Below are positions 46,588 through 49,643 of a DNA stretch of 64,000 bases, one piece after another. The first letter of the stretch is position 1. Each line of letters starts with the position of its first letter. The notes below the pieces were generated by a model. The model ran no database searches and was not told the DNA's origin. It saw nothing but the letters and a program-made list of their open reading frames with translations. Made by a program: the position numbers and the translations under genes. This stretch comes from Stappia stellulata DSM 5886 (lineage in GTDB: Bacteria > Pseudomonadota > Alphaproteobacteria > Rhizobiales > Stappiaceae). The stretch is taken from contig NZ_AUIM01000004.1 of assembly GCF_000423705.1 (NCBI RefSeq), forward strand, positions 724,587 to 788,586. Direction: 5' to 3'.

Positions 46588-46893
46588 TCAATGCGTCCAG
46601 GGCATGAACCGGTCGTAGCGGAAATTGTCCGAATAGGTGAGCCTCGGAACACGACGGGTCTTCTGCTCCTCGACACGATAGGCAAGGCCGTTGCGCTTGG
46701 CATAGGCGACCGCCTCGTCCTGCGTTTCGAACGTGAGGCGCACCTGCTGCTTCATGTCCGAGGACGACGTGTAGCCCATCAGCGGTTCGATCGAGCGTGC
46801 GGTTTCCGGCACGAACTCAAGGATCCATTCCTGGGCATTGCCGCGTCCGGACTGGGTTGCCGTCTTTGCCGGCGAGTAAATGCGTGCGACCAT
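46588..46893 (-). CDS. Complex I accessory subunit, NDUFS4/ETC complex I family
   Basis: A 101-residue protein: VARIYSPAKTATQSGRG, WILEFVPETARSIEPLMGYTSS, then QQVRLTFETQDEAVAYAKRNGLAYRV and the RRVPRLTYSDNFRYDR end. This is the 18-kDa NADH dehydrogenase subunit (NDUFS4/AQDQ) family, found in mitochondria and in alphaproteobacteria. It stabilises the NADH-binding arm of complex I. The start at 46893 gives the conserved N-terminus. It stands alone beside tRNA-Arg. Confidence 0.93.
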   Translation of the reverse strand: MVARIYSPAKTATQSGRGNAQEWILEFVPETARSIEPLMGYTSSSDMKQQVRLTFETQDEAVAYAKRNGLAYRVEEQKTRRVPRLTYSDNFRYDRFMPWTH

Positions 46894-47036
46894 CGGGCGT
46901 GTTCCGTCAACATGAGCTTGGCCTGTCCCCGACGGGACAAGGTTCGTTCCGTTTATTCCGTCCAGACGGCGCGAAGTCAATGGCACGCTGCAGACAACCC
47001 GCTCCGCACACCCGCGCTCCTCCGTCCGGCGCGTCC

Positions 47037-47993
47037 TTACGGCTGCGGCAGGCGCAACCCGAAGACCGGGCGCAACCGGGCCGCATGCCACCGCGAGGGT
47101 GCAATGCGCGCCCGGATCCGGGGTCCCGCAACGCCGCCGAGCGCCTCGATGAAGGCCCGCATCCCGCGATCCACCGCCGCGTTGAAATCCGCGTGCCTGG
47201 CCCCCGCCTTCAACCCGATCGAGGGATTGGTGTTGATTTCATAGACCGCGAGCCGCCCGTCACGAAAACCGAAATCCGCGCGGCCGTAGTCGACGCCTGC
47301 GGCCTCGAACGCCGGCCGCAGCAGTTCGGCATGCGGATTGGCCGCCATTTCGGCAATGATCTCCTCGAACTCCGCGTCGGTGGCGAGACCGCGTCGGCCA
47401 TATTTCACAAAAGGACTGTCTTCCAGCACCGTGTTCCCGGGCAGCATTGCCGACCCCACCCGATAGATCGTGTGACGCCGGTAGACCCCGTCGCGCAGTG
47501 GCGTGTTGGCGAATTCGGTCACGAGGACACGCGTCAGCGGCACGCCTTCGTCCCGGAGCTTGTCGAGACAGGCGTCGAGGGCCGACTGATCCTCCAGCAC
47601 GTCGAAGAAATGCTGGCTGTGCCCCTCCTCGCACTTCAGGAAGACGGGGAAGCGCTCCGGACGCGGACGCTGCGCCGCAGGATAAACCCGGTAGTCGTTT
47701 ATGCCCAGCGCCCGCAAACGACTCAGCAGGTCGTAGCGCAGCAGCACGCGGGCGGGATCGTTGAACACCCGCACGCCGGCCTCCCGCAGCCTGCGGCACA
47801 CCGTTGCAGCCTCGGCGAGTTCGAAATAGCGCAGCCGGTCGAGGTCCGTGAAGACGCAGGCGCCGGTCGAAATCGTGCTCTGGCGGAACAGCCAGTCGTA
47901 GCTTCGTCCCGTCACGTCGAACGTGCGATACGGCGACTTGCGAATGCCTTTCAACGTATAGGCGTGTTCCGCTGTGGTAATGAAGTGTATCAT
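47037..47993 (-). CDS. ATP-grasp family enzyme, candidate RiPP-modifying ligase
   Basis: A 318-residue protein. Residues 1-105 form an N-terminal pre-ATP-grasp-like part (VFTDLDRLRYFELAEAATVCRRLREAG, VFNDPARVLLRYDLLSRL). The ATP-grasp core has the ATP-binding Lys in FPVFLK (K120) and the metal site in YGRADFGFRDGRLAVYEINTNPSIG (D240, E252, N254). ATP-grasp ligases join a carboxylate to an amine or thiol through an acyl phosphate, and several build ester or amide crosslinks in ribosomal peptides. It diverges from the repeat peptide gene by 128 bases, which is the basis for linking them. Other ligase roles remain possible. GGAGG lies 17 bases upstream, so the start is not fully certain. Confidence 0.75.
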   Translation of the reverse strand: MIHFITTAEHAYTLKGIRKSPYRTFDVTGRSYDWLFRQSTISTGACVFTDLDRLRYFELAEAATVCRRLREAGVRVFNDPARVLLRYDLLSRLRALGINDYRVYPAAQRPRPERFPVFLKCEEGHSQHFFDVLEDQSALDACLDKLRDEGVPLTRVLVTEFANTPLRDGVYRRHTIYRVGSAMLPGNTVLEDSPFVKYGRRGLATDAEFEEIIAEMAANPHAELLRPAFEAAGVDYGRADFGFRDGRLAVYEINTNPSIGLKAGARHADFNAAVDRGMRAFIEALGGVAGPRIRARIAPSRWHAARLRPVFGLRLPQP

Positions 47994-48121
47994 GCAACGA
48001 AGCGACAGCCTCCCGTGAAATCGAAAAAGAGCTGCTACGGCAGGTGAGGACGGCAGCAGGCAATTGAATGCACACATACGTTGTGATACGCATTTTTATC
48101 AATTTCAACAAGGTGGTGATC

Positions 48122-48325
48122 ATGTCCTTTCCTGTTTCCATTTCTCCGTCCAAAGTTCTGGGCAATTGCCTGTCCAACGAACAGATGGTCGGATCGGCCA
48201 AGCCGACGGGTCCTTCGCACATCGATGCGGTTGCGCTCGACGACAGCAAGACCCTGGGCGCGCGGATCGCCAACCCGCAGATGGTCGGTTCCGGCAAGCC
48301 CGTCGGCGCTCAGAACGGGGGCTGA
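48122..48325 (+). CDS. Putative RiPP precursor peptide with two core-like repeats
   Basis: A 67-residue peptide with AGGTGG six bases before its ATG. Residues 19-30 read NEQMVGSAKPTG and residues 51-62 read NPQMVGSGKPVG, an imperfect internal repeat 32 residues apart sharing QMVGSxKPxG. The first 18 residues (MSFPVSISPSKVLGNCLS) could be a leader, and the C-terminus is a short AQNGG tail. The peptide has no signal sequence or known domain. An intrinsic terminator follows within 40 bases, as is common for highly expressed precursors. The flanking ATP-grasp and HExxH enzymes support a precursor role. It matches no family that I know by sequence. Confidence 0.6.
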   Translation: MSFPVSISPSKVLGNCLSNEQMVGSAKPTGPSHIDAVALDDSKTLGARIANPQMVGSGKPVGAQNGG

Positions 48326-48363
48326 TCGCCCCGCCGGTTTTCACGCGGACCGATCGATATCGA

Positions 48364-48394
48364 AAGGCGGCGGATGAAGATCCGGCGCCTTTTT
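48364..48394 (+). terminator. Terminator/attenuator between the peptide and HExxH genes
   Basis: AAGGCG and CGGAT pair with ATCCG and CGCCTT (one mismatch, GAAG loop), followed by a run of five T. It lies 38 bases after the peptide stop and 61 bases before the HExxH start. Partial read-through would give much more peptide than enzyme mRNA. Confidence 0.7.
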
Positions 48395-48455
48395 CGTCCG
48401 CTTGCGCCGGGCCTCATGCATGTCCGGCCGCCCCTTTCCCATCCAGGATTCCCTG

Positions 48456-49454
48456 ATGTCCGCTTCCTGCTTTCTTCCTGGAAAAGACGCCGCATTGCGC
48501 CACCTGGGCGCGCTGAACGGCCGGTTCCGGGAGAGCCTGGCGCATCTCTTCGAGCGATGCAGCGGCCATGTCGACTTCGACCCCACCCGGGCCGATGCGC
48601 TACTCGCGCAACTTGACCGGCCGTTGCGCGTCGCCCCTGCCCTGTTCGGTCACTATTTCGACGCGGTCGATGCGGTTGCCGCGCAGGACCTGCCCGCGCT
48701 GCAACGCGCGATCGACGAGCTGACGACGCGGGCGCCGGAAACCGCGCCGCCCGCGCTGCAGTTGCGTCCGCTGAACCGTGAGGGCTTCACCGAGGAGGAA
48801 GAAGCCGCCTTTCGCCGCCAGTTCGTCTCCGACTCGCTCCACGACAGCCAGCTTTCGCATCTGACCGGCCCCCCTTGCGATGCGGCCCTTGTCGAACTGC
48901 GGGCAAGTCTCGCCCTCCTGCGCGACCATGCACCGACGAGTTACAGCGAAATGGAAACCCTGGTTTCGGAGATCGTTCCCGCGCATGGCGAGGCCGTCAA
49001 CGACCTGGAATTCGACGGTGCCAGCAGCCTGAAGCGCTGGGGAACGGTGCTGATCAACATGTCACGCAGCCGCAGCCCGGCGGCGCTCGCCGAAACGCTT
49101 GTCCACGAAGCCGCGCACGGCACGCTTTTCGCCATGTCGCCGGTGGAATTCTACCTGCACAACGGTGCGGACGCACGCTATGCGTCGCCGTTGCGTGCCG
49201 ACCCGCGCCCGCTCGACGGCATCTATCATGCCACCTTCGTCCTCGCCCGCATGCATTTCGCGATGCGCGAATTGACCGATGCGCCGGGGATCACGCAAGA
49301 CGCGCGCACGGAGGCGATCGCCCTTGCCCGGCAAAGCCGCAAGGGCTTCCTGGACGGCCATGCGGTGCTTTCCGCTCATGCGGACTATACGCCGACGGGT
49401 CGACGGATCATGGAAGGCGCCCACGCATACATGCAGACGCTGGAAACGTGCTGA
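48456..49454 (+). CDS. HExxH-type (aKG-HExxH) putative peptide hydroxylase
   Basis: A 332-residue protein. The helical N-terminal half leads to LVHEAAHGTLF (H217, E218, H221), then YASPLRADPRPLDGIYHATF with Arg247/Arg251 and His258. This HExxH plus xSPLRxDPRPLxGxxH layout is the HEXXH-motif family tied to RiPP clusters, where members act as Fe(II)/2-oxoglutarate peptide beta-hydroxylases. Here the second His would be the third iron ligand and an Arg would bind 2-oxoglutarate. It is not a typical peptidase. The start at 48456 has AGGA eight bases upstream; 48402 and 48423 are weaker alternatives. Its substrate is probably the 67-residue peptide upstream. Confidence 0.78.
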   Translation: MSASCFLPGKDAALRHLGALNGRFRESLAHLFERCSGHVDFDPTRADALLAQLDRPLRVAPALFGHYFDAVDAVAAQDLPALQRAIDELTTRAPETAPPALQLRPLNREGFTEEEEAAFRRQFVSDSLHDSQLSHLTGPPCDAALVELRASLALLRDHAPTSYSEMETLVSEIVPAHGEAVNDLEFDGASSLKRWGTVLINMSRSRSPAALAETLVHEAAHGTLFAMSPVEFYLHNGADARYASPLRADPRPLDGIYHATFVLARMHFAMRELTDAPGITQDARTEAIALARQSRKGFLDGHAVLSAHADYTPTGRRIMEGAHAYMQTLETC

Positions 49455-49566
49455 AACGGGCCCGCAGGCCAGACAACCGGCACACACGAAGGCCCTGCGC
49501 GGCAGGCCAAATGTCGCGTGCAAGACCCTGAAGGCCTTGGATAAACGGAAAGATGTCCTGATGAAA

Positions 49567-49643
49567 TGGTCGGGGCAGCAAGATTCGAACTTGCGACCCT
49601 CTGCTCCCAAAGCAGATGCGCTACCAGGCTGCGCTATACCCCG
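49567..49643 (-). tRNA. tRNA-Pro(TGG)
   Basis: On the minus strand it begins CGGGGTATAGCGCAGCCTGG. The anticodon stem TCTGC/GCAGA carries loop TTTGGGA (anticodon TGG), the T arm holds AGTTCGAATCT, and CCA is encoded at 49569-49567. Confidence 0.95.

Follow-up and report, generated by a model that had tools for sequence, protein, structure and literature searches.

What do three adjoining genes of Stappia stellulata DSM 5886 make, when two of them encode enzymes of peptide-modifying families and the third a peptide of only 67 residues? The genes lie at positions 47037–49454 of a 64,000-nucleotide stretch of contig NZ_AUIM01000004.1 (the whole stretch is called the window here) and take up about 2.4 kb. 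They comprise an ATP-grasp gene on the minus strand, a divergently oriented peptide gene and a gene for a protein of the aKG-HExxH type. A first-pass annotation, made from the letters of the DNA, had placed three open reading frames (ORFs) at this locus, and all of them are present. The locus is very probably a cassette of the kind that makes ribosomally synthesized and post-translationally modified peptides (RiPPs). As read from the sequence, a modular precursor with LDxSKxLG motifs and a Lys-Gly core stands beside a stand-alone aKG-HExxH gene and opposite the ATP-grasp gene, and the three form one inherited unit in the genus. It is likely that this cassette is self-contained and that its two enzymes act by the mechanism proposed below.

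The HExxH Enzyme

The HExxH protein is a member of the aKG-HExxH peptide beta-hydroxylase family according to its profile match, a profile search of the PDB and its fold. Scanned from TTG at 48402, where the ORF of the first-pass annotation begins, it scored 99.7 bits against TIGR04267 (curated cut-off 40, E = 1.8e-28); the relatives at loci L148 and L149 favor ATG at 48456 as the start. A profile of 12 HExxH sequences matched PDB entries 8s5f (ChlH, the HExxH domain of ChlB; E = 2.8e-13) and 22nu, listed as a radical SAM protein (E = 4.3e-12), and the family alignment to both runs through HExxH and SPxRxDxRPxxGxxH. The residues H217, E218 and H221, together with S244, R247, R251, G255 and H258 of the second motif (SPLRADPRPLDGIYH in the window), were invariant in 47 of 47 aligned HExxH sequences. 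The AlphaFold2 model has a predicted local distance difference test score (pLDDT) of 95.2. Its fold matched four chains of 8s5f (best E = 3.5e-11, template modeling score (TM) 0.65), and beyond 8s5f only SjiH (22ob) was matched at E ≤ 0.001. The earlier assignment of the HEAAH protein to the RiPP beta-hydroxylases is supported by the family model, the active-site residues and the 8s5f fold. One characterized relative hydroxylates Gln and cleaves the backbone (PMC12636437) and another hydroxylates Pro (PMC13060819). Four relatives were found on plasmids, all below 60% identity and none with 80% query coverage.

The Precursor Peptide Family

The internal repeat that had been noticed in the 67-residue peptide is real, and it is more than the string QMVGSxKPxG, as an entire module of motif plus core (LDxSKxLG...MVGxxKPxG) is duplicated. 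The window peptide consists of two such modules, and its relative in genome G727 (locus L147) of three. Short ORFs between or beside both enzyme genes in other genomes have in common an N-terminal LDxSKLLG, followed by F, N or C, and then a Lys-Gly-rich tail. The frequent core repeat is GxK[IVP]GxK, and the clade of the window has MVGxxKPxG and similar strings instead. The layout is that of RiPP precursors, with a short peptide, a conserved N-terminal element, a variable core and adjoining modifying enzymes. The LDxSKxLG motif is probably an enzyme-recognition element. In 54 distinct cores (a count that leaves out locus L051, a profile match without the motif used), Gly accounted for 14.4% of residues and Lys, the second commonest, for 13.4%, and Asp (3.9%) and Glu (2.6%) together made up 6.5%. 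Lys is conserved in the core repeats, and acids are rare and have no fixed place there.

No named family in Pfam or NCBIfam matched the window peptide or 10 other members above a curated cut-off (best E = 0.053), in agreement with the first-pass annotation, which had recognized none. The leader motif, chosen after these peptides had been seen, occurred in 27 of 2685 short ORFs lying ≤1.5 kb from an ATP-grasp gene, as opposed to 0 of 6157 farther off on the same 76 loci; the 27 are spread over 21 of these loci. A precursor-family profile matched the window peptide with E = 8.6e-12, although this peptide belongs to its training set. On whole genomes, where only the first 15–20 candidates were scored in many cases, the profile found matches in 4 of 297 and 5 of 398 genomes. 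These are 8 different genomes, and the match lies beside an HExxH gene in each of them. The out-of-sample genomes G242, G414, G559, G585 and G309 all have the precursor beside HExxH, and four of them beside an ATP-grasp gene as well. Judging by the ORF count and these out-of-sample matches, the repeat and leader motif of the window type is not a product of chance.

Several loci depart from a single precursor gene. In Histidinibacterium lentulum (L091, 5575–6809), six consecutive precursor matches lie between the HExxH and ATP-grasp genes, and two loci of Verrucomicrobia (L087 and L094) have five and four. L051 carries two acidic LDTSxLLGF peptides beside ATP-grasp (1791–2150 and 2376–2738), with tails that are rich in Asp rather than Lys; these are possibly a graspetide-like branch of the same family. 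Beside the groups that have only ATP-grasp (Mesorhizobium, Azospirillum, Dongia and others), no convincing precursor-like peptide was seen by eye except in L051. A small-ORF comparison in these groups gave, among the matches listed, peptides resembling shadow ORFs, and nothing was drawn from it. The idea that ATP-grasp needs the second Lys (K.G.K) and HExxH only the first (AK[IV]G) was dropped. By eye, K.G.K is missing in four of five systems without ATP-grasp, and the fifth (G309, PKLGIKLVK) has it; K.G.K is also missing in 13 of 30 loci with both enzymes.

Co-Occurrence of the Three Genes

Of 297 genomes of the order, 13 have ATP-grasp relatives (10 at E < 1e-37, counting the window's own genome) and 14 have HExxH relatives, both totals including weak matches. 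The two genes are no more than about 2 kb apart in G000, G015, G130, G132, G225 and G242. A wider set of loci was drawn from a contig scan with the ATP-grasp alignment, as the best 80 of 171 relatives, and an HExxH gene was present on 44 of these 80 loci, which come from named genomes. Among 47 loci with both enzymes, the genes are divergent in 35, on the same strand in 8 and convergent in 4; two genomes are counted twice in this number (L019/L083 and L021/L105), and the pairs at L069 and L090 are unreliable, as their ORFs overlap. Of the loci with both enzymes, 30 have precursor profile matches, and 25 of these had contributed to the profile. The trio was found in Alpha-, Beta- and Gammaproteobacteria and in Verrucomicrobiota. 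The pairing of ATP-grasp with aKG-HExxH that had been pointed out in this alphaproteobacterium is thus real without being special to it.

Recurrent neighbors, named by eye, are most commonly ABC-transporter-like genes (14 loci, median identity 31%, median distance 3.1 kb), and several of these 14 loci have no HExxH gene. Such transporters may export the product in some loci.

Inheritance of the Cassette in the Genus

Among the 14 genomes of the window's genus, 4 have the ATP-grasp gene, compared with 0 of 73 genomes in the other genera of the family. In the window, L147 and L148, the cassette sits between the same flanks, with tRNA-Arg and an NDUS4 gene to its left and tRNA-Pro to its right. 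The NDUS4 gene is also near tRNA-Pro in members of the genus without the cassette. In six of the seven cassette-free members that were aligned (G726, G720, G729, G195, G725 and G728), the flanks are about 175–350 bp apart, with tRNA-Pro inverted in G195 and G728; in the seventh, G722, they are about 1.2 kb apart and enclose other DNA. G146, G173 and G723 are outside this comparison. The flanks of the window are 2.7 kb apart, with the variable interval at 46894–49563. As the flanks are otherwise close in the genus, the three genes were gained or lost as one piece. This shared insertion, together with the co-occurrence described above, supports the earlier proposal that the three genes are one unit with a precursor-like peptide.

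Against three relatives in the genus, the ratio of nonsynonymous to synonymous substitution rates (dN/dS) was 0.12–0.14 for ATP-grasp, 0.18–0.20 for HExxH and 0.37–0.59 for the peptide, with dS near 0.8–1.0 for most pairs. All three genes look coding, and the peptide appears to evolve fastest, which fits a precursor. The tree of 65 ATP-grasp sequences places the window in a clade of seven (support 100/100). Every member of this clade is accompanied by HExxH and precursor; the seven come from Stappia, Oricola, a Rhodobacteraceae bacterium and three Gammaproteobacteria, including Thiogranum and Thiohalobacter. The mixture of Alpha- and Gammaproteobacteria in this clade suggests horizontal transfer of the cassette. 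Over the whole tree, the partner label requires 8 changes, compared with 21.3 in shuffles.

The ATP-Grasp Enzyme

The ATP-grasp protein belongs to no named family. Neither Pfam nor NCBIfam gave a match beyond noise for the window protein and 11 aligned relatives, and no NCBIfam graspetide model was matched at E ≤ 1 by these 12 members of the family. Models of graspetide synthetases include TIGR04184 and NF038074; TIGR04187 is named in PMC13097080. In the PDB, the family profile reached only D-Ala-D-Ala ligases, with a best E of 0.003. The AlphaFold2 model (pLDDT 92.8) has an ATP-grasp fold. According to Foldseek, it is about equally near to Ddl, LysX/ArgX, RimK, synapsin and the graspetide synthetase PsnB, and the 50 fold matches listed have 9–17% identity and TM of about 0.4–0.6. 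The D240/E252/N254 metal site proposed earlier holds throughout the family, as these residues are invariant in 65 of 65 aligned relatives. Lys120, which had been named along with it, is present in the window protein but is Arg in the other 11 of the 12 sequences of the first alignment, so it is no signature of the family.

No ATP-grasp relative occurred among 50,697 phage records, which gives no sign of a phage origin. Two distant relatives are borne on plasmids, in Paracoccus and Deinococcus, and their annotated neighbors, in a gene table that is incomplete, name no HExxH gene. The former (L153, 4229–5278, on a plasmid of Paracoccus sp. MC1862) is annotated as "hypothetical protein" and is flanked by genes for an oligosaccharide flippase and an O-antigen ligase. 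A second role of the wider family may lie in envelope polysaccharide.

Other arrangements were also seen. One genome (G093; L025, 6802–9788, and L123) has three tandem ATP-grasp genes of the family, with no HExxH gene or precursor match on the locus. In one of the groups with ATP-grasp only, a second conserved protein of about 240 residues (MIFYRIHDRAPQ...) is encoded nearby in L022 (8324–9052), L086, L101, L108, L112 and L118, counted as six loci of which L118 is the same contig as L022. Genome G182 has its ATP-grasp gene and an HExxH relative on different contigs (C94 and C24; L023 and L128), and the open frame that contains this ATP-grasp is unusually long at 902 residues, perhaps a fusion and perhaps a GC-rich overrun.

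Proposed Mechanism and Alternative Explanations

The enzymatic roles proposed here are read from sequence and predicted structure. The HExxH enzyme, with Fe(II) and 2-oxoglutarate, would hydroxylate one core residue per repeat, for which the candidates are Lys itself or the P, I or V that follows it. The ATP-grasp enzyme would activate a carboxylate as an acyl phosphate and form an amide at the conserved core lysines, again one per repeat. This carboxylate would more likely come from a small molecule, an amino acid or the peptide's own C-terminus than from an Asp or Glu side chain, because many cores have few acids or none. The repeats conserve no nucleophile other than Lys, and Lys has no fixed acid partner; for this reason, ligation of an outside carboxylate to Lys is favored over a graspetide macrolactam. 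Leader removal and export, if any, would depend on proteins encoded elsewhere, and the product predicted from these parts is a cationic, oxidized and acylated peptide. There is a fair chance that the cassette represents a new RiPP class. The fuller proposal is a widespread and undescribed class in which precursors built of LDxSKLLG modules have (GxK[IVP])n cores and are matured by a stand-alone aKG-HExxH enzyme and a new ATP-grasp family that acylates Lys or links it by an amide in some other way, without core Asp/Glu, all in a minimal three-gene cassette; we consider the odds on it evenly balanced.

A number of observations weigh against the joint action of the three genes. The first-pass annotation had held that enzymes occurring without each other and without the peptide would speak against a common pathway, and such cases exist in part. 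No HExxH gene was found on 36 of the 80 ATP-grasp loci, although some contigs are short and two of these loci (L121 and L124) had no ORF matching either profile. Conversely, HExxH and a precursor-like peptide occur in five genomes (G235, G040, G145, G158 and G309) where nothing matched ATP-grasp at E ≤ 0.001. Of their peptides, those of G235 (a training-set member) and G309 score above the profile threshold, and the other three were assigned by motif. In L051, L087 and L094, the precursor lies beside ATP-grasp with no HExxH gene seen, on contigs of 5.7 and 4.2 kb for the first two and near one contig end for the third. G015, G130 and G225 have both enzymes and no precursor profile match, their peptides (LVGF/LFGF type) having been assigned by eye, and 12 of the 65 tree rows have HExxH with no precursor recognized by the profile. 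The loci without a visible HExxH gene and the relative in a polysaccharide cluster indicate that the ATP-grasp family has other roles. A pattern scan found no sigma-70-like promoter at the cassette. The three-gene insert contains no peptidase or exporter, just as the first-pass annotation had remarked of the adjoining genes, though ABC-transporter-like genes lie a few kilobases off in some other loci.

Three other explanations have to be considered. The first-pass annotation took the ATP-grasp protein for a graspetide-type crosslinker, which would build macrolactams between Lys and Asp or Glu of the core or leader, with the HExxH enzyme hydroxylating the product. Lys is known as a graspetide donor (PMC13097080), the fold is related to PsnB (Foldseek rank 33), Asp or Glu is present in 50 of the 54 cores, repeats such as KIGEKP or KIGDKP occur, and L051 has acidic LLGF peptides. 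However, no graspetide synthetase model was matched, the fold is about as close to Ddl, LysX/ArgX and RimK as to PsnB, and the cores are poor in Asp and Glu. Four of the 54 cores hold no acid at all, three of them (L117, L049 and L097) in loci with both enzymes; where acids occur, they have no fixed position in the repeat, and the leader Asp is absent from L055, L056 and the first module of the window peptide. The crosslinker assignment is thus not supported, and macrolactam formation is considered improbable.

It is also conceivable, if unlikely, that the ATP-grasp enzyme adds an amino acid to the peptide C-terminus in the manner of RimK or LysX/ArgX and that the HExxH enzyme modifies the core; this C-terminal extension is our second choice after the joining of an outside carboxylate to Lys. 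Carboxylates of proteins or peptides are the substrates of LysX/ArgX and RimK, and these enzymes rank high among the fold matches (2, 3 and 12). By eye, however, the precursors show no conservation at their C-termini, and the retention and multiplication of the Lys-Gly repeats would be left unexplained. Finally, the ATP-grasp enzyme might act elsewhere, for example on cell-envelope polysaccharide, and adjoin the HExxH–precursor pair for regulatory or historical reasons. The Paracoccus plasmid relative, the glycosyltransferase-like and ABC-transporter-like genes (named by eye) near some cassettes and the five genomes that lack ATP-grasp are all consistent with this. Nevertheless, the clade of the window keeps both partners in 7 of 7 rows and the insert in the genus is three genes only, which makes such independence very doubtful. 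A self-contained cassette in which an outside carboxylate is joined to Lys is therefore the explanation that we prefer.

Features of the Locus

The features are collected in Table 1. The terminator-like hairpin folds as RNA with −22.6 kcal/mol (z −2.5). A pattern scan for terminators includes it, yet the scan found 2 sites in total, compared with 2.6 in shuffles. It is possible, as a guess, that the hairpin serves as an attenuator.

Table 1. Coordinates of the cassette and its flanks in the window.
Feature	Position	Strand	Basis or remark
ATP-grasp ligase-like protein, without named family	47037..47993	-	ORF, 318 aa, starts MIHF
Candidate precursor peptide gene, 67 aa	48122..48325	+	ATG at 48122, stop ends 48325
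Ribosome-binding-like AAGGTGG	48110..48116	+	5 nt upstream of precursor ATG; sequence
Precursor module 1, ISPSKVLGN...MVGSAKPTG	48140..48211	+	sequence; similar modules in L147–L149
Precursor module 2, LDDSKTLGA...MVGSGKPVG	48236..48307	+	sequence; relative L147 has three modules
Terminator-like hairpin and T run	48362..48393	+	between precursor and HExxH gene
Stand-alone aKG-HExxH-type peptide beta-hydroxylase, 332 aa	48456..49454	+	TIGR04267
HEAAH metal motif, residues 217–221	49104..49118	+	H217, E218, H221 invariant 47/47
SPLRADPRPLDGIYH, residues 244–258, aKG-HExxH family motif	49185..49229	+	aligned to same motif in 8s5f
NDUS4-family gene, left flank, outside cassette	46588..46893	-	Pfam PF04800, E 1e-33
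tRNA-Pro(TGG), right flank, outside cassette	49567..49643	-	ARAGORN

Significance and Comparison with Known Systems

The cassette joins two peptide-modifying enzyme families that were not found reported together, on a precursor family that is nameless in Pfam and NCBIfam. The literature searched, with most subscription papers outside its coverage, held no description of ATP-grasp and aKG-HExxH in one RiPP locus and no match to the precursor leader strings. If the ATP-grasp enzyme does acylate Lys with an outside carboxylate, this would be, to our knowledge, a reaction new to RiPPs, and the enzyme might be used to acylate lysine. The natural systems with and without ATP-grasp provide a built-in comparison for the target of each enzyme, and the size of about 2.4 kb makes the chemistry of the cassette experimentally tractable.

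RimK, LysX/ArgX and D-Ala-D-Ala ligase resemble the ATP-grasp protein in their fold and gave its best Foldseek and weak profile matches. The resemblance is nevertheless distant (9–17% identity and TM of about 0.4–0.6 in the matches listed), and these enzymes are not known to share a locus with genes for a peptide and an HExxH oxygenase. Graspetides such as microviridin and plesiocin (synthetase PsnB) have in common with the cassette an ATP-grasp enzyme with the D/E/N metal site and a precursor that contains repeats, as that of plesiocin does. They differ in their leader; moreover, no graspetide model was matched, and window-type cores are Lys-Gly and poor in Asp and Glu. On the side of the HExxH enzyme, the fused ChlB-HExxH protein (PDB 8s5f) is of the same family and has the same motifs and fold. 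The stand-alone enzymes PesO of the nitrilobacillins (PMC13060819) and PflC/PosC (PMC12636437) are reported with MNIO, nitroreductase-fused MNIO, AS-like and transporter genes rather than ATP-grasp, and with precursors that carry other motifs (ARMD and R(V/T)DN). They share with the HExxH protein of the window the TIGR04267 family and its HExxH and SPxRxDxRPxxGxxH motifs, and the PesO and PflC genes likewise adjoin a small precursor gene.

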